Virus record (IMG/VR): IMGVR_UViG_3300050821_002264
Coordinates: 1-50,876 of that record
Length of the DNA: 50,876 bases
Source: a virus
Reading direction: 5' to 3' (one strand)
Below, piece after piece: positions 5,752 through 47,875 of the stretch; position 1 is the stretch's first letter; every line of letters starts with the position of its first letter. A program made the position numbers and the translations under genes. The notes under the pieces were generated by a model. It ran no database searches and was not told where the DNA came from. It saw nothing but the letters and a program-made list of their open reading frames with translations.

Positions 5752-6275
5752 TGGGAATCTTCGAACGCTTGTTCAGCAATGACCATGATCGGTTGAAGTC
5801 GATTGTGGATCAACTAAGTGACGAAGTCGCACACCGCGTCGAGACCAAGCTGACCGACGAGTTTGTGGCGCTTGCGGAAGTCGAGCAGGCGACAGAGAAA
5901 GTGGTGAAGCTGACGGGCGAGATTGCGCAGTTGAAGGAGCAGAAGGCGTCAATTGAGGAAGGGTTTGCTCGTCGGGAACGTGAGGGGGAGCATAAGATCG
6001 GTCTGCTGAGACAAGAGATCGAAGCCGAGAAGGCGCAGAGTGAGAAGGACTTTGCCTTGCGCGTCAAGGAAGCCAAGCTCGAAGCACGCGAGGAAGGCTT
6101 GCAGCAGCGTCAACAAGCGTTCACGGAACGTATGGACTTCATGACCAAGCGGTTTGAAGGGGAAGTGGGCTATCTGAAGGAATTGCTGGAAGCCATGAGC
6201 GCACGGTTGCCGGATGCGTCGATTATTGCGGTGGGAGGAGTGAAGCCTCCATATGACGCAACCGTGGCCAGGTAG
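5751..6275 (+). CDS. Coiled-coil protein
   Basis: 174 residues; residues 15-145 are a long charged coiled coil (IEAEKAQSEKDFALRVKEAK), with a short Pro/Gly-rich tail. TAATG overlap with the nuclease gene suggests coupled synthesis and possibly a shared complex. Resembles SbcC-like or scaffold-type helical proteins only in composition. Function unknown. Confidence 0.7.
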   Translation: MGIFERLFSNDHDRLKSIVDQLSDEVAHRVETKLTDEFVALAEVEQATEKVVKLTGEIAQLKEQKASIEEGFARREREGEHKIGLLRQEIEAEKAQSEKDFALRVKEAKLEAREEGLQQRQQAFTERMDFMTKRFEGEVGYLKELLEAMSARLPDASIIAVGGVKPPYDATVAR

Positions 6276-6780
6276 CTTGGGCGGCTTGCTAGGCTTTGGG
6301 AGCATGCTTCAAGGAATACCCTTGTCGGCTGACGCGCTCATGCAGCAAGGAATACAAATGCAGCAATCAGACCTTTGGCAAGCGCAGACTGAGGCGATGA
6401 AGAAAGCGTGGTTAACGACGCGAGAAGCGGTCTTTGGGAAGCCACTTATCGAAGACTATGGAAACTTTAAGGTCGTCATGCCACCAGACCCGTTTGAGAA
6501 GCGACCGCATGCGAAGTGGCTACATGAGCGGTTAGAGACCACGTTGACGCATGGACGAGAGTGGTTGACGAGTGGTCGGACAGTAGCACCAAAGGAGTTT
6601 GTGCGCACGATTGCGACAGTGCCCATATCGGCGGAAATGAAAGCCAAAGTTGGTACGGGCATTCCGACCAAGCGCTTGTTGAATGGTGATTTGGTATATG
6701 TGTATCCTGAAGATCATCATGTGCAACCAGAAGTCCTTGACAAGTGGACAGCAAAGAATCACGAATGGGGAGGCATGTAG
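6253..6780 (+). CDS. Hypothetical recombination-operon protein
   Basis: 175 residues, no recognised domain. A Gly/Leu-rich N-terminus (GSLGGLLGFGSMLQG), a helical middle, and a C-terminal region with PTKRLLNGDLVYVYPEDHHV. It overlaps the coiled-coil gene by 23 bases and the ATPase gene by one base (TAGTG), so it likely works with them. Confidence 0.65.
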   Translation: MTQPWPGSLGGLLGFGSMLQGIPLSADALMQQGIQMQQSDLWQAQTEAMKKAWLTTREAVFGKPLIEDYGNFKVVMPPDPFEKRPHAKWLHERLETTLTHGREWLTSGRTVAPKEFVRTIATVPISAEMKAKVGTGIPTKRLLNGDLVYVYPEDHHVQPEVLDKWTAKNHEWGGM

Positions 6781-41216: not shown

Positions 41217-41564
41217 TTAGTCCTTAGAGTGTTTGATCTCGTGGCAATTCGCACATAACGCTTGAAATCGTTCTGGAGTCTTAAGGACTTCTTCGATCAT
41301 TCGCCACTGGCCAAGTTGACGGCGCTGTGCTGCTCCGTCGTTATGGACATGGTCAATATGAAGGACGCGCATGTCGTTGTTGCCACACTCTACGCACTTT
41401 CCGCCAAGCAGCATTAGCGCTCTGACGCGCTTCATGTGCCGATGTCTTTGCGAATATTCCGCCTGCGGATACTTGCGTGGAATCTTTACAGATTGAATAG
41501 AATACACATATTCTCCATGTCGAGTTGTCTGCTTGATACGTTTTTGGTGGGAGCGAGCCGTCAA
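41217..41564 (-). CDS. HNH endonuclease
   Basis: 115 residues. CVECGNNDM, LHIDHVHNDG and LCANCHEIKH give the HNH core and its zinc Cys pairs. Free-standing homing-type or packaging-linked nuclease, inserted directly before the coat gene. The start is a TTG at 41564; an internal ATG at about 41435 would keep the whole HNH domain, so the start is uncertain. Confidence 0.75.
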   Translation of the reverse strand: MTARSHQKRIKQTTRHGEYVYSIQSVKIPRKYPQAEYSQRHRHMKRVRALMLLGGKCVECGNNDMRVLHIDHVHNDGAAQRRQLGQWRMIEEVLKTPERFQALCANCHEIKHSKD

Positions 41565-41636: not shown

Positions 41637-41665
41637 AATATACCACTATTTACTTCTGATGTCAA
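41637..41665 (-). promoter_or_regulatory. Main - strand late promoter
   Basis: On the - strand: TTGACA (41665-41660), 17-base spacer, TATATA (41642-41637). It starts the coat/tail operon. GGTAAATA repeats at 41631-41638 and 41668-41675, and the inverted pair CTATTTAC (41646-41653) / GTAAATAG (41669-41676), surround it and look like operators. Confidence 0.8.
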
Positions 41666-41756: not shown

Positions 41757-41785
41757 TTGACAATATGGTCTGTATAGTATATATT
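41757..41785 (+). promoter_or_regulatory. Sigma-70 promoter, divergent from the late promoter
   Basis: TTGACA 41757-41762, 17-base spacer, TATATT 41780-41785. Starts the regulator gene. Just downstream TGTACA is repeated at 41800-41805 and 41812-41817, possible operator half-sites. Confidence 0.85.
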
Positions 41786-42345: not shown

Positions 42346-42514
42346 GAATGGGCATCAGTTTCCGCTGAAGGACTTTGAGCCGGGCGAGGGCGTTATTGCC
42401 TCAATAAGCTGGTGTCCATTAGACGTTCCGCATCCGGAAGTCGGGGGGATCATATATCCGTGTAGCGCAAGAGTGGTCTGGCGCAGACCCCTTGACAATT
42501 CGAAGCCAAAGTGA
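42320..42514 (+). CDS. Small Cys/His protein
   Basis: 64 residues with MCENGHQFP, SWCPLDVPHP and IYPCSARVVWR, a possible zinc ribbon of C-x4-H...C...C. Could start at ATG 42338 instead. The stop overlaps the tRNA-array promoter. Confidence 0.6.
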   Translation: MVDSIVMCENGHQFPLKDFEPGEGVIASISWCPLDVPHPEVGGIIYPCSARVVWRRPLDNSKPK

Positions 42515-42520
42515 TATATT
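42492..42520 (+). promoter_or_regulatory. Sigma-70 promoter of the stable-RNA array
   Basis: TTGACA 42492-42497, 17-base spacer, TATATT 42515-42520. Transcript would start near 42527, just before the first structured RNA. Confidence 0.85.
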
Positions 42521-42653: not shown

Positions 42654-42725
42654 TGGGAATAACGTTCGAGGTGAACAGCGGGCCTTGGAAGCTCGAAATG
42701 GCCAGTTCGACTCTGGCATTCCCAA
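42654..42725 (+). tRNA. tRNA-Pro(TGG)
   Basis: Acceptor TGGGAAT/ATTCCCA, D-arm GTTC/GAAC, anticodon loop CTTGGAA, T-arm GCCAG-TTCGACT-CTGGC. No encoded CCA. Confidence 0.9.
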
Positions 42726-42727
42726 TT

Positions 42728-42798
42728 TGGCGTTGGTCAGGATGCGTGACACACATATAATAGCCTAGTTGCTAGATGCACGTTCAGTCGCAGCGCCA
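42728..42798 (+). ncRNA. tRNA-sized element E (unknown)
   Basis: TGGCGTT (42728-42734) pairs with AGCGCCA (42792-42798) and GTCA/TGAC forms a D-arm-like hairpin, total 71 bases, fitting tightly between two tRNA-Pro genes. Anticodon and T arms are not convincing. The same DNA holds a possible promoter. Confidence 0.35.
42733..42761 (+). promoter_or_regulatory. Possible promoter inside the array
   Basis: TTGGTC 42733-42738, 17-base spacer, perfect TATAAT 42756-42761. Confidence 0.45.
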
Positions 42799-42804
42799 TT
42801 TACT

Positions 42805-42878
42805 CGGGATTCGGGCTCAAGGTGGGCCTCTCGTTTCGGAGACGAGACATCAGGCAGGTTCGATTCCGGCAATCCCGA
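42805..42878 (+). tRNA. tRNA-Pro(CGG)
   Basis: Acceptor CGGGATT/AATCCCG, anticodon arm CTCGT-TTCGGAG-ACGAG, T-arm GCAGG-TTCGATT-CCGGC with one mismatch. Confidence 0.88.
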
Positions 42879-42970
42879 CTGTATTGCACCACATGGTTCC
42901 GTGCTCTATAAAGCGAAAAACAGTCATAAAGTACCGCTAGCGGGAAATATGCTCCTGCCGGAATCATTCT

Positions 42971-43042
42971 CTGACGTTGGTCGAGTGGCATAGGCGGTCG
43001 CCTGCAAAGCGACTCAGGTAGGTTCGATCCCTACACGTCAGT
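42971..43042 (+). tRNA. tRNA-Cys(GCA)
   Basis: Acceptor CTGACGT/ACGTCAG, anticodon arm GTCGC-CTGCAAA-GCGAC, T-loop TTCGATC. The 92 bases before it (42879-42970) hold only small hairpins (GCAC/GTGC, CCGCTAGCGG). Confidence 0.9.
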
Positions 43043-43046
43043 CTTT

Positions 43047-43146
43047 GAACGTTGGATACTTGGTACATGATCGCGATTGTACCGGACAAGCACGATGTCG
43101 TGTTGGTGCGTACCGTAGCCAACGAGCCGACTCGTAGTCCAACGTT
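43047..43146 (+). ncRNA. Structured RNA element B (unknown)
   Basis: A perfect 10-base-pair closing helix GAACGTTGGA (43047-43056) / TCCAACGTTC (43137-43146) holds three hairpins: GGTAC/GTACC, CACGA/TCGTG and ACGAG/CTCGT. Four bases after tRNA-Cys and 11 before tRNA-His. Cloverleaf-like but without a T-loop or anticodon loop I can recognise. Confidence 0.5.
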
Positions 43147-43157
43147 CATGGTTTACT

Positions 43158-43233
43158 CAGCTACGTGGCCTAATCCCGGCAGAGGCATCGGTCTGTGAAG
43201 CCGAGGAACTGGGTTCGAATCCCAGCTAGCTGA
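43158..43233 (+). tRNA. tRNA-His(GTG)
   Basis: Acceptor CAGCTAC/CTAGCTG (last pair C-C), anticodon arm TCGGT-CTGTGAA-GCCGA, T-arm CTGGG-TTCGAAT-CCCAG. Confidence 0.88.
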
Positions 43234-43253
43234 CTTGACAGGGAGCCGTACAT

Positions 43254-43324
43254 GCCACTTTCGTCCAAAGGTAGGACGCGAGGCTTTCAACCTTGAAACG
43301 AGGGGTCAGTACCCTCAAGTGGTA
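43254..43324 (+). tRNA. tRNA-Glu(TTC)
   Basis: Acceptor GCCACTT/AAGTGGT, D-arm GTCC/GGAC, anticodon loop CTTTCAA, T-arm GAGGG-GTCAGTA-CCCTC (non-TTC T-loop). Confidence 0.88.
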
Positions 43325-43325
43325 C

Positions 43326-43354
43326 TTGACATTTTGACTCAGAAGTGTTATACT
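43326..43354 (+). promoter_or_regulatory. Promoter inside the tRNA array
   Basis: TTGACA 43326-43331, 17-base spacer, TATACT 43349-43354, placed exactly between tRNA-Glu and tRNA-Gly. Confidence 0.8.
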
Positions 43355-43369
43355 ACAAAAGTAGCCAAT

Positions 43370-43440
43370 GCATCAATGACATAGCGGCTGTGTGCCAGCC
43401 TTCCAAGCTGGAGAGCCGGGTTCAACTCCCGGTTGGTGCT
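43370..43440 (+). tRNA. tRNA-Gly(TCC)
   Basis: Acceptor GCATCAA/TTGGTGC, anticodon arm CCAGC-CTTCCAA-GCTGG, T-arm CCGGG-TTCAACT-CCCGG. Confidence 0.9.
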
Positions 43441-43453
43441 TGTAGGTCCATAT

Positions 43454-43525
43454 GCGTGTGTAGTTCAACAGCAGAACGCTGCATTGCCAATGCAGAAGTA
43501 GCGGGGGCAGCACCCGCCATGCGCT
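43454..43525 (+). tRNA. tRNA-Gly(GCC)
   Basis: Acceptor GCGTGTG/CATGCGC, anticodon arm CTGCA-TTGCCAA-TGCAG, T-arm GCGGG-GGCAGCA-CCCGC. Confidence 0.88.
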
Positions 43526-43535
43526 CTTGTACAAC

Positions 43536-43607
43536 GGCTCTTGAGTCTGTTGGATACGACGTTCGGTCCACACCCGAGAGGATTGGGTTCGATTCCCAGA
43601 GGAGCCA
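43536..43607 (+). tRNA. tRNA-Val(CAC)
   Basis: Acceptor GGCTCTT/AGGAGCC, anticodon arm TTCGG-TCCACAC-CCGAG (C at position 33), T-loop TTCGATT. The next tRNA begins at the very next base. Confidence 0.85.
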
Positions 43608-43681
43608 TGGTCGTTAATCTTAATTGGCAAAGGAAGGGTCTTTTAAACCCGAGTTGTGGGATCGTTGCCCACACGACCAAT
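43608..43681 (+). tRNA. tRNA-Lys(TTT)
   Basis: Acceptor TGGTCGT/ACGACCA, anticodon loop CTTTTAA, T-arm GTGGG-ATCGTTG-CCCAC. Confidence 0.87.
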
Positions 43682-43730
43682 GCACTGACGCGGCACCGAC
43701 ACAGTGGGTAAACTCATTCGGGCTACCAGA

Positions 43731-43804
43731 GCGGGTGAGCAGGCACGGTTCCTGCGTCAGTCTCATAAGCTGAAATCCAAGGGTTCGACTCCCTTACCCG
43801 CCAT
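43731..43804 (+). tRNA. tRNA-Met-type (CAT anticodon)
   Basis: Acceptor AGCGGGT/ACCCGCC with an A1-C72 mismatch, D-arm GCAGG/CCTGC, anticodon arm TCAGT-CTCATAA-GCTGA, T-arm AAGGG-TTCGACT-CCCTT. Elongator Met, initiator or Ile-lysidine type cannot be told apart by eye; the 1-72 mismatch is an initiator-like trait. Confidence 0.87.
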
Positions 43805-43806
43805 TG

Positions 43807-43877
43807 CTCACGTCGTCTAGTGGTACGGACGGGTGGTTCTCAACCACCAGACTAGGGTTCGATTCCCTACGAGAGCA
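43807..43877 (+). tRNA. tRNA-Glu(CTC)
   Basis: Acceptor GCTCACG/CGAGAGC (one mismatch), anticodon arm GGTGG-TTCTCAA-CCACC, T-arm TAGGG-TTCGATT-CCCTA. Confidence 0.9.
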
Positions 43878-43882
43878 CTGAC

Positions 43883-43956
43883 GCTCGTGTGGCGTAATTG
43901 GTAAACGCGGTTGGCTTAAACCCAACTTTGTGCAGGTCCGAATCCTGCCATGAGCA
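43883..43956 (+). tRNA. tRNA-Leu(TAA), short variable loop
   Basis: Acceptor GCTCGTG/CATGAGC, Leu-type D-arm (TGGCGTAATTGGTAAACGC), anticodon arm GTTGG-CTTAAAC-CCAAC, then only 5 variable-loop bases before T-arm GCAGG-TCCGAAT-CCTGC. Confidence 0.88.
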
Positions 43957-43960
43957 CTTT

Positions 43961-44034
43961 GCGCGGGTGATGCAACTGGCAGACATCGTGGTCTCAAAAA
44001 CCATGTCTTGTGGGTTCAAATCCCACCCTACGCA
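43961..44034 (+). tRNA. tRNA-Leu(CAA), short variable loop
   Basis: Acceptor GCGCGGG/CCTACGC (one mismatch), D-arm ATG/CAT, anticodon arm GTGGT-CTCAAAA-ACCAT, 5-base variable loop, T-arm GTGGG-TTCAAAT-CCCAC. Confidence 0.87.
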
Positions 44035-44037
44035 CTT

Positions 44038-44109
44038 GTCGTATAGCGTGTCGGTACGCACGCCGCACCTGTAATGCGGTCCTCGCTGGTTCGACTCCAG
44101 CATACGGCT
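44038..44109 (+). tRNA. tRNA-Thr(TGT)
   Basis: Acceptor GTCGTAT/ATACGGC, D-arm CGTG/CACG, anticodon arm CCGCA-CCTGTAA-TGCGG (C33), T-arm GCTGG-TTCGACT-CCAGC. Confidence 0.88.
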
Positions 44110-44113
44110 CTTT

Positions 44114-44184
44114 GCTTTGATAGTTCAGTGGTAGAACAGTTGCTTGGTAAGCAACTAGCGCAGGTTCGATTCCTGCTCTTAGCT
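44114..44184 (+). tRNA. tRNA-Thr(GGT)
   Basis: Acceptor GCTTTGA/TCTTAGC with two T-T mismatches, D-arm GTTC/GAAC, anticodon arm GTTGC-TTGGTAA-GCAAC, T-arm GCAGG-TTCGATT-CCTGC. Confidence 0.82.
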
Positions 44185-44190
44185 CTGTAT

Positions 44191-44264
44191 GCGTGTGTGA
44201 TGCAATTGGTAGACATACTAGTCTCAGAAACTAGGTTTTGTAGGTTCGAATCCTACCATACGCA
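44191..44264 (+). tRNA. tRNA-Leu(CAG), short variable loop
   Basis: Acceptor GCGTGTG/CATACGC, Leu-type D-loop CAATTGGTAGA, anticodon arm CTAGT-CTCAGAA-ACTAG, 5-base variable loop, T-arm GTAGG-TTCGAAT-CCTAC. Confidence 0.9.
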
Positions 44265-44265
44265 C

Positions 44266-44336
44266 TGGCTGAAAACATTGCAGCGATGTAGCGGTCTCTT
44301 AAACCGCAAAGCAGGGGGCAGCACCCTGTCAGCCAA
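44266..44336 (+). tRNA. tRNA-Lys(CTT)
   Basis: Acceptor TGGCTGA/TCAGCCA, D-arm ACAT/ATGT, anticodon arm GCGGT-CTCTTAA-ACCGC, T-arm CAGGG-GGCAGCA-CCCTG. Confidence 0.88.
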
Positions 44337-44339
44337 TAC

Positions 44340-44412
44340 GGTCGATTGGCGCAATAGTCAGCGCAGACGCCTGATACGCGTAAGGTTCTTGGTGCAAGTC
44401 CAAGATTGACCA
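44340..44412 (+). tRNA. tRNA-Ile(GAT)
   Basis: Acceptor GGTCGAT/ATTGACC, D-arm GCGC/GCGC, anticodon loop CTGATAC, T-arm CTTGG-TGCAAGT-CCAAG. Confidence 0.88.
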
Positions 44413-44419
44413 CTGGTCG

Positions 44420-44512
44420 TTTTGTCGGACGGTGAGAAGGTGTTCTAGACACTAGGGCCTCACCCAGTAGGGATCATGACCCTGCGTAGCAGTGTTGCCC
44501 TGTAGACAAAAT
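44420..44512 (+). tRNA. Probable tRNA with CAT anticodon and D-loop insertion
   Basis: Acceptor TTTTGTC/GACAAAA is perfect; D-stem GGTGAG/CTCACC encloses a 22-base loop with its own hairpin; anticodon arm TAGGG-ATCATGA-CCCTG has three stacked G-C pairs next to the loop, the hallmark of initiator tRNA; T-arm AGCAG-TGTTGCC-CTGTA. About 93 bases long. A weak T1-A72 end pair would also suit an initiator. Confidence 0.5.
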
Positions 44513-44520
44513 GGCTTTCT

Positions 44521-44595
44521 GCTGATCTGCTGCAATTGGTAGACGGACGTGGTCTGAGAAGCCACGGGATGAAGGTTCGAATCCTTCGGTCAGCA
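44521..44595 (+). tRNA. tRNA-Leu(GAG), short variable loop
   Basis: Acceptor GCTGATC/GGTCAGC, Leu-type D-loop CAATTGGTAGA, anticodon arm GTGGT-CTGAGAA-GCCAC, 5-6 base variable loop, T-arm GAAGG-TTCGAAT-CCTTC. Confidence 0.9.
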
Positions 44596-44599
44596 CTTT

Positions 44600-44673
44600 G
44601 TCGGTAACGGTTAACTGGCAGACCACCGCACCCGTAATGCGGCATAGATGTGGTTCGAGTCCACATACCGGCT
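44600..44673 (+). tRNA. tRNA-Thr(CGT)
   Basis: Acceptor GTCGGTA/TACCGGC, D-arm GGT/ACC, anticodon arm CCGCA-CCCGTAA-TGCGG (C33), T-arm TGTGG-TTCGAGT-CCACA. Confidence 0.88.
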
Positions 44674-44689
44674 CTTGTCGTACAAGTAC

Positions 44690-44761
44690 CGTGGTCGGGA
44701 GCGAATGGCGCTCACAGGGCCGTAAACCCTCAGATGCTTGGTTCGAATCCAAGGTCCACGA
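44690..44761 (+). tRNA. tRNA-Tyr(GTA), short variable loop
   Basis: Acceptor CGTGGTC/GTCCACG (one T-T), D-arm GAGC/GCTC, anticodon arm CAGGG-CCGTAAA-CCCTC (C33), 5-base variable loop, T-arm CTTGG-TTCGAAT-CCAAG. Bacterial tRNA-Tyr normally has a long variable arm. Confidence 0.87.
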
Positions 44762-44764
44762 CTT

Positions 44765-44850
44765 GGAGTGTTGGCAGAGAGGCTTATCGCAGCGGTTTGC
44801 TAAACCGCCGTGTCTAATCAACACCGGAGGTTCGAATCCTCCACGCTCCG
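44765..44850 (+). tRNA. tRNA-Ser(GCT), class II
   Basis: Acceptor GGAGTGT/ACGCTCC, anticodon arm GCGGT-TTGCTAA-ACCGC, a long variable arm (CGTGT...ACACCG), T-arm GGAGG-TTCGAAT-CCTCC, discriminator G. Confidence 0.9.
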
Positions 44851-44861
44851 TTAGCATTGCT

Positions 44862-44946
44862 GGAAGTAGTCTGGTTCGGTCGAAGACGCCGTCCCGAAAA
44901 CGGTTGGGCCTAAAACGCCTCGGGGGTTCGAGTCCCTCTGCTTCCG
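44862..44946 (+). tRNA. tRNA-Ser(CGA), class II
   Basis: Acceptor GGAAGTA/TGCTTCC, anticodon arm GCCGT-CCCGAAA-ACGGT (C33), long variable arm GGGC/GCCTC, T-loop TTCGAGT, discriminator G. The 73 bases after it (44947-45019) hold hairpins GCAGT/ACTGC and CGTGGT/ACCACG and no gene I can name. Confidence 0.88.
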
Positions 44947-45019
44947 CTACGGCAGTTCTGAGATACTGCGTTACCAACAATCTCCGTGGTGCCGGATAAA
45001 CCACGCTAAACCCCGGTAT

Positions 45020-45093
45020 GCGATTTTAGGGGAGAGGCCGTCCCCGCGTCCCTGTCACGGATGAAATCGAGGGTTCGAATCCCTCAAGTCGCG
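45020..45093 (+). tRNA. tRNA-Asp(GTC)
   Basis: Acceptor GCGATTT/AAGTCGC, D-arm GGGG/CCCC, anticodon arm CGTCC-CTGTCAC-GGATG, T-arm GAGGG-TTCGAAT-CCCTC, discriminator G. Confidence 0.9.
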
Positions 45094-45096
45094 CTT

Positions 45097-45165
45097 CTCG
45101 ATGTGCGTTTGGACCGCAGCGACGTTTCTACCGTCGTCAAGAGGGTTCGACTCCTTCCATCGGGA
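45097..45165 (+). tRNA. tRNA-Arg(TCT)
   Basis: Acceptor CTCGATG/CATCGGG, small D-arm GCG/CGC, anticodon arm CGACG-TTTCTAC-CGTCG, T-arm GAGGG-TTCGACT-CCTTC. Only 69 bases. Confidence 0.87.
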
Positions 45166-45167
45166 CT

Positions 45168-45238
45168 GGCGCATAGCTCAATTGGTTAGAGCAGGGAGCT
45201 TATATCTCTCAGATGCGGGTTCAAGTCCCGATGTGCCC
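45168..45238 (+). tRNA. tRNA-Ile(TAT)
   Basis: Acceptor GGCGCAT/ATGTGCC, D-arm CTC/GAG, anticodon arm GGGAG-CTTATAT-CTCTC, T-loop TTCAAGT. A TAT anticodon is uncommon in bacteria. Confidence 0.88.
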
Positions 45239-45242
45239 ATAC

Positions 45243-45315
45243 GGCTCGGTAGTTCCAATGGTAGAACGGCGGTTTGAAGCACCGCGCGTTGCTGGTTCGA
45301 ATCCAGCCCTAGCCA
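45243..45315 (+). tRNA. tRNA-Phe(GAA)
   Basis: Acceptor GGCTCGG/CCTAGCC (one mismatch), D-arm GTTC/GAAC, anticodon arm GCGGT-TTGAAGC-ACCGC, T-arm GCTGG-TTCGAAT-CCAGC. Confidence 0.9.
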
Positions 45316-45316
45316 C

Positions 45317-45388
45317 TTCGCTGTGTTGCAACGGATAGCCTGAAGGGTTCCGAACCCTTCGATCCGGGTTCGATTCCCGGCAGCGAGA
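45317..45388 (+). tRNA. tRNA-Arg(CCG)
   Basis: Acceptor TTCGCTG/CAGCGAG, anticodon arm AAGGG-TTCCGAA-CCCTT, T-arm CCGGG-TTCGATT-CCCGG. Confidence 0.9.
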
Positions 45389-45389
45389 C

Positions 45390-45461
45390 TCGGTCATAAG
45401 CTAACGGATAGACGGAAAGGCTACGAACCTTTCAGTGCGAGTTCGACTCTCGCTGACCGGA
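45390..45461 (+). tRNA. tRNA-Arg(ACG)
   Basis: Acceptor TCGGTCA/TGACCGG, anticodon arm AAAGG-CTACGAA-CCTTT, T-arm GCGAG-TTCGACT-CTCGC. A34 would need conversion to inosine by host TadA. Confidence 0.9.
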
Positions 45462-45462
45462 C

Positions 45463-45534
45463 TGCGCTATAGTTTAACCGGCAGAACGCTGGGCTCTGAA
45501 CCCAGAAGTCATGGTCCGAATCCATGGTGCGCAA
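45463..45534 (+). tRNA. tRNA-Gln(CTG)
   Basis: Acceptor TGCGCTA/GTGCGCA (two mismatches at the inner end), D-arm GTTT/GAAC, anticodon arm CTGGG-CTCTGAA-CCCAG, T-arm CATGG-TCCGAAT-CCATG. Confidence 0.87.
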
Positions 45535-45582
45535 TTGTCGTATAGTACATATGGAAGCTATGGAAGCCAGCTTCCGTACCAT
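45535..45582 (+). promoter_or_regulatory. Array gap with TATAGTACATA half-site and hairpin
   Basis: TATAGTACATA at 45541-45551 matches the operator half-site at 7610; downstream GGAAGC/GCTTCC can form a hairpin. Perhaps a weak or regulated promoter (TTGTCG upstream) for the RNase P RNA and last tRNAs. Confidence 0.35.
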
Positions 45583-45657
45583 TGGAGTATAGCCTAACTG
45601 GCAAGGCGCTCGGCTGTTACCCGAGATTGAATGGGGGTTCGAAGCCCTCTGCTCCAG
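45583..45657 (+). tRNA. tRNA-Asn(GTT)
   Basis: Acceptor TGGAGTA/TGCTCCA, D-arm GCC/GGC, anticodon arm CTCGG-CTGTTAC-CCGAG, T-arm GGGGG-TTCGAAG-CCCTC. Confidence 0.9.
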
Positions 45658-45659
45658 CT

Positions 45660-45909
45660 TGACCGTTTGACGTGTCGCGGTCTTGGGCAGCACAAGAGCC
45701 AACGACCGAGGAAGTTCGCGACTGCAAGTGGGAGGTAGGAGCAGATCGTGGCCCGTTCGACTCGGGTGAAGGTAAGGCGGCCTTCTGATCTGCGCTTGCA
45801 CTACCGCAACGCAGCAACCCGAACAGGTGACTGAGTGACCCACGCTAACACCGGGTCGGGGCATAGGCAGATGACACGATAAAACAGAATCGCGGCTATG
45901 GGACGGTCA
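45660..45909 (+). ncRNA. rnpB: RNase P RNA (phage-encoded)
   Basis: The 250-base RNA folds by hand into the bacterial RNase P core. P1: TGACCGT 45660-45666 / ACGGTCA 45903-45909. P2: CGTGTC 45671-45676 / GACACG 45873-45878. P3: CGGTC 45678-45682 / GACCG 45704-45708. P4: AG-(T bulge)-TCGCGA 45713-45721 with TCGCGGCT 45890-45897, keeping the conserved bulged U. P5: CTGC 45722-45725 / GCAG 45811-45814, then AGCAACCCGAACAGG (45813-45827), matching the conserved AGCAAggCcAAAtAGG segment. The 3' core ACAGAAtcgcGGCTAT (45885-45899) and 5' GAGGAAGT (45708-45715) match the family. Stem GACCC/GGGTC (45837-45857) is P15-like. It lies 2 bases after tRNA-Asn and 4 before tRNA-Val. Predicted job: 5' maturation of the array's tRNAs with host RnpA protein. 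Confidence 0.88.
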
Positions 45910-45913
45910 TAAT

Positions 45914-45984
45914 GCTTGGTGAGTAGGTCGGTAATACGCGGCATTGACATTGCCGAAGACTAGGTTCGACTCCTAGATCAAGCA
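45914..45984 (+). tRNA. tRNA-Val(GAC)
   Basis: Acceptor GCTTGGT/ATCAAGC, D-arm GTA/TAC, anticodon arm CGGCA-TTGACAT-TGCCG, T-arm CTAGG-TTCGACT-CCTAG. Confidence 0.9.
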
Positions 45985-45987
45985 CTT

Positions 45988-46060
45988 GAGTCATATGGTT
46001 CAATGGTGAACCGCCAGTCTCCAAAACTGGAAACGCTGGGTTCGATTCCTAGATGGCTCG
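45988..46060 (+). tRNA. tRNA-Trp(CCA)
   Basis: Acceptor GAGTCAT/ATGGCTC, D-arm GGTTC/GAACC, anticodon arm CCAGT-CTCCAAA-ACTGG, T-arm CTGGG-TTCGATT-CCTAG, discriminator G. Confidence 0.9.
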
Positions 46061-46061
46061 T

Positions 46062-46145
46062 TCGGCAGGGTAACGGTGTGCATTGGGGCGAGCAGTCCCC
46101 GATGACTGTGTACCGGGTGTCTTCGTCCATTCTACCCGCGTGCCA
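46062..46145 (+). ncRNA. Structured RNA element D (unknown)
   Basis: GGCA-GGGTA near 46063-46071 pairs with TACCC-(GCG)-TGCC ending near 46144; inside are CGGT/ACCG, GGGG/CCCC and CGGGT/ACCCG pairings. It follows tRNA-Trp directly. The next 66 bases to tRNA-Ala contain GGCTG/CAGCC and no gene I can name. Confidence 0.4.
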
Positions 46146-46211
46146 AAGGGCTGTGATATGGCCAGCCATGTGAAAGCCGACACAAGACAGCGCTGAAGGA
46201 GAATGGCGATT

Positions 46212-46284
46212 GGGCTAGGTAAGCTCCGGGGAGTGATGGTGACTTGCAATCACCTCGCGGTGGGTTCGACTCCCACGTGGTCCA
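46212..46284 (+). tRNA. tRNA-Ala(TGC)
   Basis: Acceptor GGGCTAG/GTGGTCC (G-T pairs, one G-G), anticodon arm GGTGA-CTTGCAA-TCACC, T-arm GTGGG-TTCGACT-CCCAC. Confidence 0.87.
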
Positions 46285-46297
46285 CTGTTTGACATAC

Positions 46298-46368
46298 TGG
46301 GCTTTCGTCTAATGGCAGGACTGATGGCTTTGAACCATCGTATCTAGGTTCGACCCCTAGAGGCCCAA
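46298..46368 (+). tRNA. tRNA-Gln(TTG)
   Basis: Acceptor TGGGCTT/AGGCCCA, D-arm GTC/GAC, anticodon arm GATGG-CTTTGAA-CCATC, T-arm CTAGG-TTCGACC-CCTAG. Last tRNA of the array. Confidence 0.9.
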
Positions 46369-47150: not shown

Positions 47151-47315
47151 ATGAGCGTACACGATGCATGGCTTACAGACCCGCATGGCGATAAGAAAGC
47201 CATTGACCGGGAGAAGCCTTACGCACTAGCCGAGCGCTACCGTCGTCTCTCAACGTTATGGCTCATGAATAACGTTCCATACTATGGCGAGTATGGCTAT
47301 GGAGACATTGACTAA
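47151..47315 (+). CDS. 54-residue protein
   Basis: MSVHDAWLTDPHGDKKAIDR, charged helix, Tyr/Gly-rich end (YYGEYGYGDID). ATG 47151 has GAGGGAAC upstream; a GTG at 47112 is less likely. TAATG overlap with the SprT-like gene. Function unknown. Confidence 0.6.
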   Translation: MSVHDAWLTDPHGDKKAIDREKPYALAERYRRLSTLWLMNNVPYYGEYGYGDID

Positions 47316-47875
47316 TGAACCGCGAGCAATGGCTATCCGACGCTGTTGAGCTTATGCGGCCATGGTTCGAAACGCACGGGTACCCAGTACCGGAAAAGCT
47401 CAGAGTGTCCGTAGGCTGGCCCCGGTCAAGCCGCAAGGCAATCGGGCAATGCTGGCACAAGAGCGCGGCAAAGGATGGGGTTGGTCAGGTATTCATTAGC
47501 CCCGTGCTCGACACGTCAGTAAGCGCGCTAGACACGTTAGCGCACGAGCTAGTGCATGCGGCTATTGACCCGCATCCGGGGCATGCTGGGAAGTTCGTTA
47601 CTGCCATGAAAGCGCTGGGTTTAAACGGTAAGCCTAAGAGCGCTGGCGCTGGTCCGTTGCTTATGCCATTGATCCTTGACATTGCGGCCAAGTTGGGCGA
47701 TTATCCACATGCGGCACTAGACCCGCGTGATGGGATTAAGAAGCAGTCAACACGATTGCTCAAGGTTGAGTGTTCCAATTGCGGGTATGTATGCCGAGTC
47801 ACAAGGAAGTGGTTAGACGATGCTGGCGCGCCAATTTGTCCTACGGATCATGAACCGATGACGGGAGAGGTTTAA
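47315..47875 (+). CDS. SprT-like zinc metalloprotein
   Basis: 186 residues. AHELVHAAIDPHPGHAGKF gives the HExxH plus downstream His ligand set of SprT/WSS1-type metallopeptidases; the C-terminal domain has VECSNCGYVC and PICPTDHE, the zinc ribbon expected in the family. Such proteins act on DNA-protein crosslinks in cells; in phages the role is unknown. Confidence 0.85.
   Translation: MNREQWLSDAVELMRPWFETHGYPVPEKLRVSVGWPRSSRKAIGQCWHKSAAKDGVGQVFISPVLDTSVSALDTLAHELVHAAIDPHPGHAGKFVTAMKALGLNGKPKSAGAGPLLMPLILDIAAKLGDYPHAALDPRDGIKKQSTRLLKVECSNCGYVCRVTRKWLDDAGAPICPTDHEPMTGEV

Follow-up and report, generated by a model that had tools for sequence, protein, structure and literature searches.

We found that the 50,876-nt viral DNA analyzed here (IMG/VR record IMGVR_UViG_3300050821_002264, hereafter the window) encodes, at 45660-45909 (+), a phage minimal RNase P RNA lodged within an array of tRNA genes, and that dozens of unrelated phages besides this virus, including one that is laboratory-grown, carry the RNA as well. 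RNase P RNA is among the oldest trans-acting ribozymes, and it has been regarded as a gene of cells (and of organelles). The gap that hosts it (45659-45913) lies between tRNA-Asn(GTT) (45583-45658, +), which ends 1 nt before P1, and tRNA-Val(GAC) (45914-45985, +), which starts 4 nt after P1; the gene, taken from P1 to P1, rests on a covariance-model match (model R1, see below) and on covariation. A first-pass annotation had proposed this identity, and architecture, covariation and homology bear it out, with P1, P2, P3, P4 with its bulged U, P5 and the conserved segments all present where they had been placed. That the RNA is phage-encoded was likewise confirmed, as the contig carries genes for a terminase large subunit, a DNA polymerase and a major head protein, and relatives of the RNA were found by motif scan on approximately 98 IMG/VR viral contigs and, in addition, in a cultured phage.

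All elements of the RNA were located on the + strand. P1 (7 bp; TGACCGT, 45660-45666, with ACGGTCA, 45903-45909) was read from the sequence and is supported by the comparison of own with mixed partners, while P2 (6 bp; CGTGTC, 45671-45676, with GACACG, 45873-45878) is supported by paired cells and double changes. The P3 hairpin (45678-45708), helix 3 of the alignment, pairs CGGTC (45678-45682) with GACCG (45704-45708). CR-I and the 5' strand of P4, with its bulged U, form GAGGAAGTTCGCGA (45708-45721), which is invariant in all aligned relatives, and P4 itself pairs 45713-45721 with 45890-45897 in the alignment. P5 joins CTGC (45722-45725) to GCAG (45811-45814), and the P6 pseudoknot of type A, whose pairing in the window was read directly in the sequence, joins GTGGG (45728-45732) to CCCAC (45839-45843). 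The reduced specificity domain, also read from the sequence, is closed by P7 (GGTAG/CTACC, 45734-45805) and capped by a single hairpin (CAGATC at 45742, GATCTG at 45787). Within 45818-45860, alignment pairing defines P15 (45818-45821 with 45857-45860) and P16 (45826-45829 with 45849-45852), together with GGT (45854-45856), the GGU motif for binding the CCA of pre-tRNA, which does not vary among the 31 aligned sequences. The alignment places J18/2, AGGCAGAT (consensus AGATAAAT), at 45865-45872, and the window copy has no P18 hairpin. Finally, CR-V (45884-45898) is composed of ACAGAA, the P4 3' strand TCGCGGCT and GGCTA, in invariant columns. GGU binds the 3' CCA of tRNA in bacteria; a simple check of 3' ends indicated that CCA is apparently encoded in only 3 of the 30 window tRNAs. 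A protein-coding reading of the region was rejected, the only listed open reading frame of at least 90 codons being antisense (45421-45864, -) and overlapping tRNAs as well.

The hallmarks of the RNase P superfamily (Rfam clan CL00002) are met, namely P4 with a bulged U, the long-range CR-I/CR-V pseudoknot with P2, and P1, P2, P3, P5 and P15 in order and covarying; moreover, the superfamily core letters GAGGAA, ACAGAA, AGA..AAU and GGCU.A are present as invariant columns. From type A, the P6 pseudoknot (J5/7 to the P16/P17 loop) and the GGU motif are present, and the specificity domain P8-P14 with CR-II/CR-III is absent. The single-sequence fold of the window RNA is only mildly stable relative to shuffles (z of -1.9), so that the single sequence alone is not decisive. 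Covariation across relatives, which the first-pass annotation had named as a test of its reading, was clear: in an alignment of 31 sequences, the window among them, pairing holds in 92.9% of cells, versus 61.4 +/- 1.0% in shuffles, and falls to 30-43% when partners are slid by one to three columns. Changes on both sides of a pair occur in 382 cells versus 117 in shuffles, and the covariation score is 0.764 versus 0.189. By helix, pairing reaches 93% in P2 (double changes in all 6 pairs), 98.8% in P4 (with compensatory changes), 100% in P5 (double changes in 4 of 4 pairs), 98.9% in P15 and 97.6% in P16. Mixed partners equaled own pairing in 0 of 2000 permutations for P1 and for P2, and in 0 of 5000 for the P6 pseudoknot in 42 relatives; the window GGU was outside the search range of the P6 script, and the window P6 was read by hand. 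A further set of 31 distinct sequences outside the model, from the third scan described below, gave 93.8% pairing and a covariation score of 0.846 versus 0.182, though here the alignment had been fitted to the model. The active-site letters (GAGGAAGTTCG, ACAGAA, GGCTA, AGA..AAT and GGT) are invariant. Hundreds of compensatory changes around an invariant catalytic core point to long selection on the structure.

The expectation that the bacterial RNase P models of Rfam would match significantly was not fulfilled for the window copy: no RNase P match in the window reaches the gathering score, and the best one, to RNaseP-T, covers 45664-45905 with 15.7 bits (gathering score 60). Relative L025, for which this model was likewise the best among the RNase P families, reached 30.9 bits, again below 60. 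What stood of that expectation came from two relatives, in which RNaseP_bact_a does match, below its gathering score of 100 bits (RF00010): 54.7 bits in phage DLP6 and 54.0 bits in locus L060, with none in the window. Other weak Rfam matches in the window, including a NiCo riboswitch (19 bits, cut-off 37), were attributed to chance. The window copy was recovered with a family-specific covariance model, R1, built from 29 relatives, excluding the window as well as L018, its nearest kin. Searched against the whole window, R1 gave exactly one match (45658-45911, +; 111.4 bits, E 7.1e-34), and a chance origin of the structure is excluded. R1 also matched every locus of the third (short-core; 41 loci) and second (long-core; 18 loci) scans, as well as DLP6 (161 bits) and the head-protein relative L054, both reached by a motif-free route. 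E. coli rnpB gave no match with R1, which is specific to the phage form. The three cellular genomes with motif matches gave at most 16.9 bits except for L040.

Relatives were collected by scanning IMG/VR with a motif in which the CR-I and CR-V ends were fixed and the middle was free, which retrieved 39 contigs at first, 18 with a longer middle and 41 with a shorter middle; 79 distinct RNAs were left after duplicates and false matches were dropped. The first motif, run on 84,980 cellular genomes, gave three matches, of which only L040 was true. This locus scores 167.8 bits with R1 and stands on a 3-kb contig with 13 tRNAs in a Roizmanbacteria bin (JAAXWV010000224.1); the contig is probably of phage origin and was binned there, or belongs to a CPR phage. 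The other two, L041 (Micrarchaeum, 15 bits) and L042 (Bradyrhizobium, with no R1 match at E <= 1), were judged to be chance. Patterns for the canonical bacterial form had 0 matches in viral contigs, which rules out host contamination and indicates that the viral RNAs are neither host DNA nor fresh captures. The RNAs are 192-290 nt long (median about 235). All 79 share GAGGAAGTTCG and GGCTA, versus GAGGAAAGTCCG and GGCTTA in the bacterial consensus; P4 is thus short of an A on one side and of a U on the other, which amounts to the matched loss of one pair. Part of this P4 signature was fixed by the scan patterns, and the DLP6 copy was found without them. P8-P14, with CR-II/III, are lost or down to a hairpin in the Rfam alignments of DLP6 and L060, in which 110 RNaseP_bact_a positions of the specificity domain are represented by 20 and 38 nt, respectively, and the window has one hairpin. 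In an RNase P core at L038:3792-4063, CR-I lies only 16 nt from tRNA-Asp, so that P1-P3 seem to be missing, and the 3' side has a hairpin of its own.

The copy in a cultured isolate was found in Stenotrophomonas phage DLP6 (KU682439.2, 168 kb), at 105773-106019, where it is unannotated. No isolate phage was matched by the window RNA with blastn, and DLP6 was reached through relatives L010 and L031. Its RNA lies within the tRNA region, 6 nt before tRNA-Arg, and matches RNaseP_bact_a over the full length (E 3.7e-14); this match was lost with 313 bases as input and regained with 801 bases, while that of L060, end to end, was stable in both searches. In the paper on DLP6, 30 tRNAs are reported and RNase P goes unmentioned (PMC5349666). 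Gathering cut-offs, as used in standard annotation, thus miss the phage RNA even in a sequenced laboratory phage.

We then considered the tRNA context. The array enclosing the RNA (42654-46368) holds 30 tRNA genes predicted by ARAGORN, all on the + strand; with 3 found only by Rfam the union is 33, short of the "35 or more" counted in the first-pass annotation. A consensus scan, the only basis for these assignments, located four near-identical promoter-like sites (TTGACA-17-TATATT/TATACT) at 41637-41665 (-), 41757-41785 (+), 42492-42520 (+) and 43326-43354 (+), which are probably phage promoters. The third of these, TTGACA-17-TATATT, is upstream of the array, and the fourth stands after its early tRNAs. 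The same scan showed no further site on the + strand from 43354 to the RNA, which fits co-transcription with the array. An HNH endonuclease gene (41217-41564, -) lies beside the array, and a weak SprT-like match (47315-47875, +) lies downstream. Among the relatives, the RNA was on the tRNA strand in 71 of 71 tRNA-bearing loci, with 943 tRNAs co-oriented and 0 opposite, and 43 of the 45 records searched contained tRNAs (the 45 include three without the RNA, L045, L048 and L052). Two contigs, L006 (94 kb) and L066 (108 kb), have the RNA and no tRNA along their whole length, perhaps because they are incomplete or because the RNA is used differently there.

Among the relatives of the window by head protein, presence of the RNA is mixed. 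It occupies the same place in L054 (66% identical head protein) and in L018 and L049 (76%). In L043 and L044 (96%), a copy stands beside tRNA-Asn at about 6057-6302 (-), and the 5' strands of P1 and P2 were not found; this copy appears to be decayed or rearranged, with P1 and P2 lost. L045, L046 and L052 (94%) keep 28 tRNAs and have 12 nt at the expected site of the RNA, while L048 (91%) has three tRNAs and no RNA. Since kin without the RNA retain 28 tRNAs, the RNA is not essential for using the array, and this mixed pattern suggests that it helps rather than being required, or that the host enzyme replaces it.

In our view the RNA is most likely a phage-specific minimal RNase P RNA that is transcribed with the array, probably borrows RnpA and cleaves phage pre-tRNAs in trans, with transcription and catalysis being inferred. 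The intact catalytic domain (P1-P7, P15, P16 and the P6 pseudoknot), with a specificity domain cut to one hairpin, would be transcribed as part of the tRNA array. As the RNA is sandwiched at distances of 1 and 4 nt, tRNA 3' processing together with RNase P cleavage at tRNA-Val would excise the ribozyme. It would then probably bind host RnpA and cleave the 5' leaders of phage pre-tRNAs in trans; the benefit, also an inference, may be extra processing capacity while dozens of phage tRNAs are made at once. The borrowing of RnpA is inferred from the absence of an RnpA gene (PF00825) from 38 phage records (the window and 37 related ones), in a search whose control was detected in 10 of 14 genomes; host RnpA is therefore presumably needed in vivo, and the "self-contained" tRNA supply suggested by the first-pass annotation overstates the case. 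In bacteria, elements of the specificity domain bind the T-loop of pre-tRNA, and as they are absent here, efficiency on pre-tRNA is uncertain. Nevertheless, an invariant catalytic core under compensatory changes argues for a working ribozyme and not a decoy or relic, and the tRNA linkage argues for pre-tRNA as the substrate. With less assurance, we favor the broader proposal that these RNAs are a distinct and widespread phage class reduced to the catalytic domain, which is active and makes the tRNA supply partly independent of the host; some members may act protein-free or on changed substrates, although activity has not been shown.

Alternatively, the RNA could be a decoy that titrates host RnpA and slows host tRNA maturation, the phage tRNAs being processed by the remainder. 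RnpA is not phage-encoded, the regions of the catalytic domain that contact RnpA in bacteria are retained, and the specificity domain, on which good substrate binding depends, has been lost, all of which would suit this explanation. However, a decoy would need neither the catalytic P4 core nor the CCA-binding GGU, both invariant in the alignment, and strict co-orientation with phage tRNAs fits use better than sabotage, so that we regard titration as improbable. Slightly more improbable still is a role mainly in cis, in which the RNA would process its own polycistronic transcript and free itself and the neighboring tRNAs, in a placement resembling that of theta ribozymes beside phage tRNAs. Adjacency speaks for it: of about 80 RNAs (the 79 and one chance match), 37 are found no more than 10 nt behind or 20 nt ahead of a tRNA, as in the window. 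Yet more than half have no tRNA directly beside them, the distance in many cases amounting to hundreds of bases, and the identity of the neighbor varies (Asn, Thr, His, Ala, Ser and others); in addition, RNase P acts in trans with multiple turnover. A functionless captured fragment of host rnpB, hitch-hiking in tRNA arrays, would accommodate the loss or decay of the RNA in close kin (L043-L046, L048, L052), but is hardly tenable given a catalytic core that stays invariant amid hundreds of compensatory changes and the lack of canonical bacterial patterns, hence of fresh captures, in viral contigs.

Compared with bacterial type A (RF00010; E. coli M1 RNA), the phage RNAs share P1-P5, the P6 pseudoknot, P15/P16, the GGU motif and the CR-I/CR-V order. 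They differ in length (about 190-290 nt versus 377 for M1 RNA), in having no specificity domain beyond one hairpin, in scoring below the gathering cut-off, in carrying GAGGAAGUUCG/GGCUA instead of GAGGAAAGUCCG/GGCUUA with a P4 one A-U pair shorter, and in sitting in phages, in tRNA arrays. Type T of Pyrobaculum (RF02357) similarly has the catalytic domain and has almost lost the specificity domain, but is archaeal and chromosomal, whereas the phage RNAs retain a bacterial-style P15 GGU and P6. Diverged CPR RNase P RNAs lack P12-P14 and often fall below Rfam thresholds; unlike the phage RNAs they are cellular genes, and some are without the UGG/GGU that the phage RNAs keep (PMC8172020). Theta ribozymes of gut phages also lie beside tRNA genes and were proposed to act in tRNA maturation (PMC10879173), but they are HDV-like cis self-cleavers at tRNA 3' ends with an unrelated fold. 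The large structured RNAs GOLLD and ROOL, which have likewise been described in phages and in tRNA arrays (PMC12286853), have a different structure, are not RNase P and are of unknown function. In agreement with the first-pass annotation, which knew of no such phage feature, we found no description of a phage-encoded RNase P RNA in the open-access literature (subscription papers and bioRxiv were not covered): the term RNase P is absent from a survey of huge phages (PMC7162821), and the passages on phages and viruses in a 2024 RNase P review include none (PMC11143913). As reports could exist elsewhere, a claim of first description is provisional.

The finding suggests that phages supply some of the machinery for maturing their own tRNAs, activity not having been shown. 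The RNA would account for the maturation of dozens of tRNAs in tRNA-rich phages, and it adds a ribozyme to the translation parts that phages carry. About 79 distinct viral sequences, almost devoid of the specificity domain, would offer fresh natural material on the minimum for pre-tRNA cleavage, and because DLP6 can be grown, the idea is testable now. In phages with this RNA, tRNAs with anticodon CTA (labeled Pyl by ARAGORN), likely amber suppressors, occur in L002, L011, L016, L085 and L096, including contigs of 371 and 494 kb. Moreover, permuted tmRNA (RF04321) was matched above gathering near the tRNA arrays of DLP6 (L073:3026-3247, 136.8 bits), whose record has no tmRNA feature annotated there, and of L020 (3628-3819, 53.7 bits), while L093 has a one-piece tmRNA.
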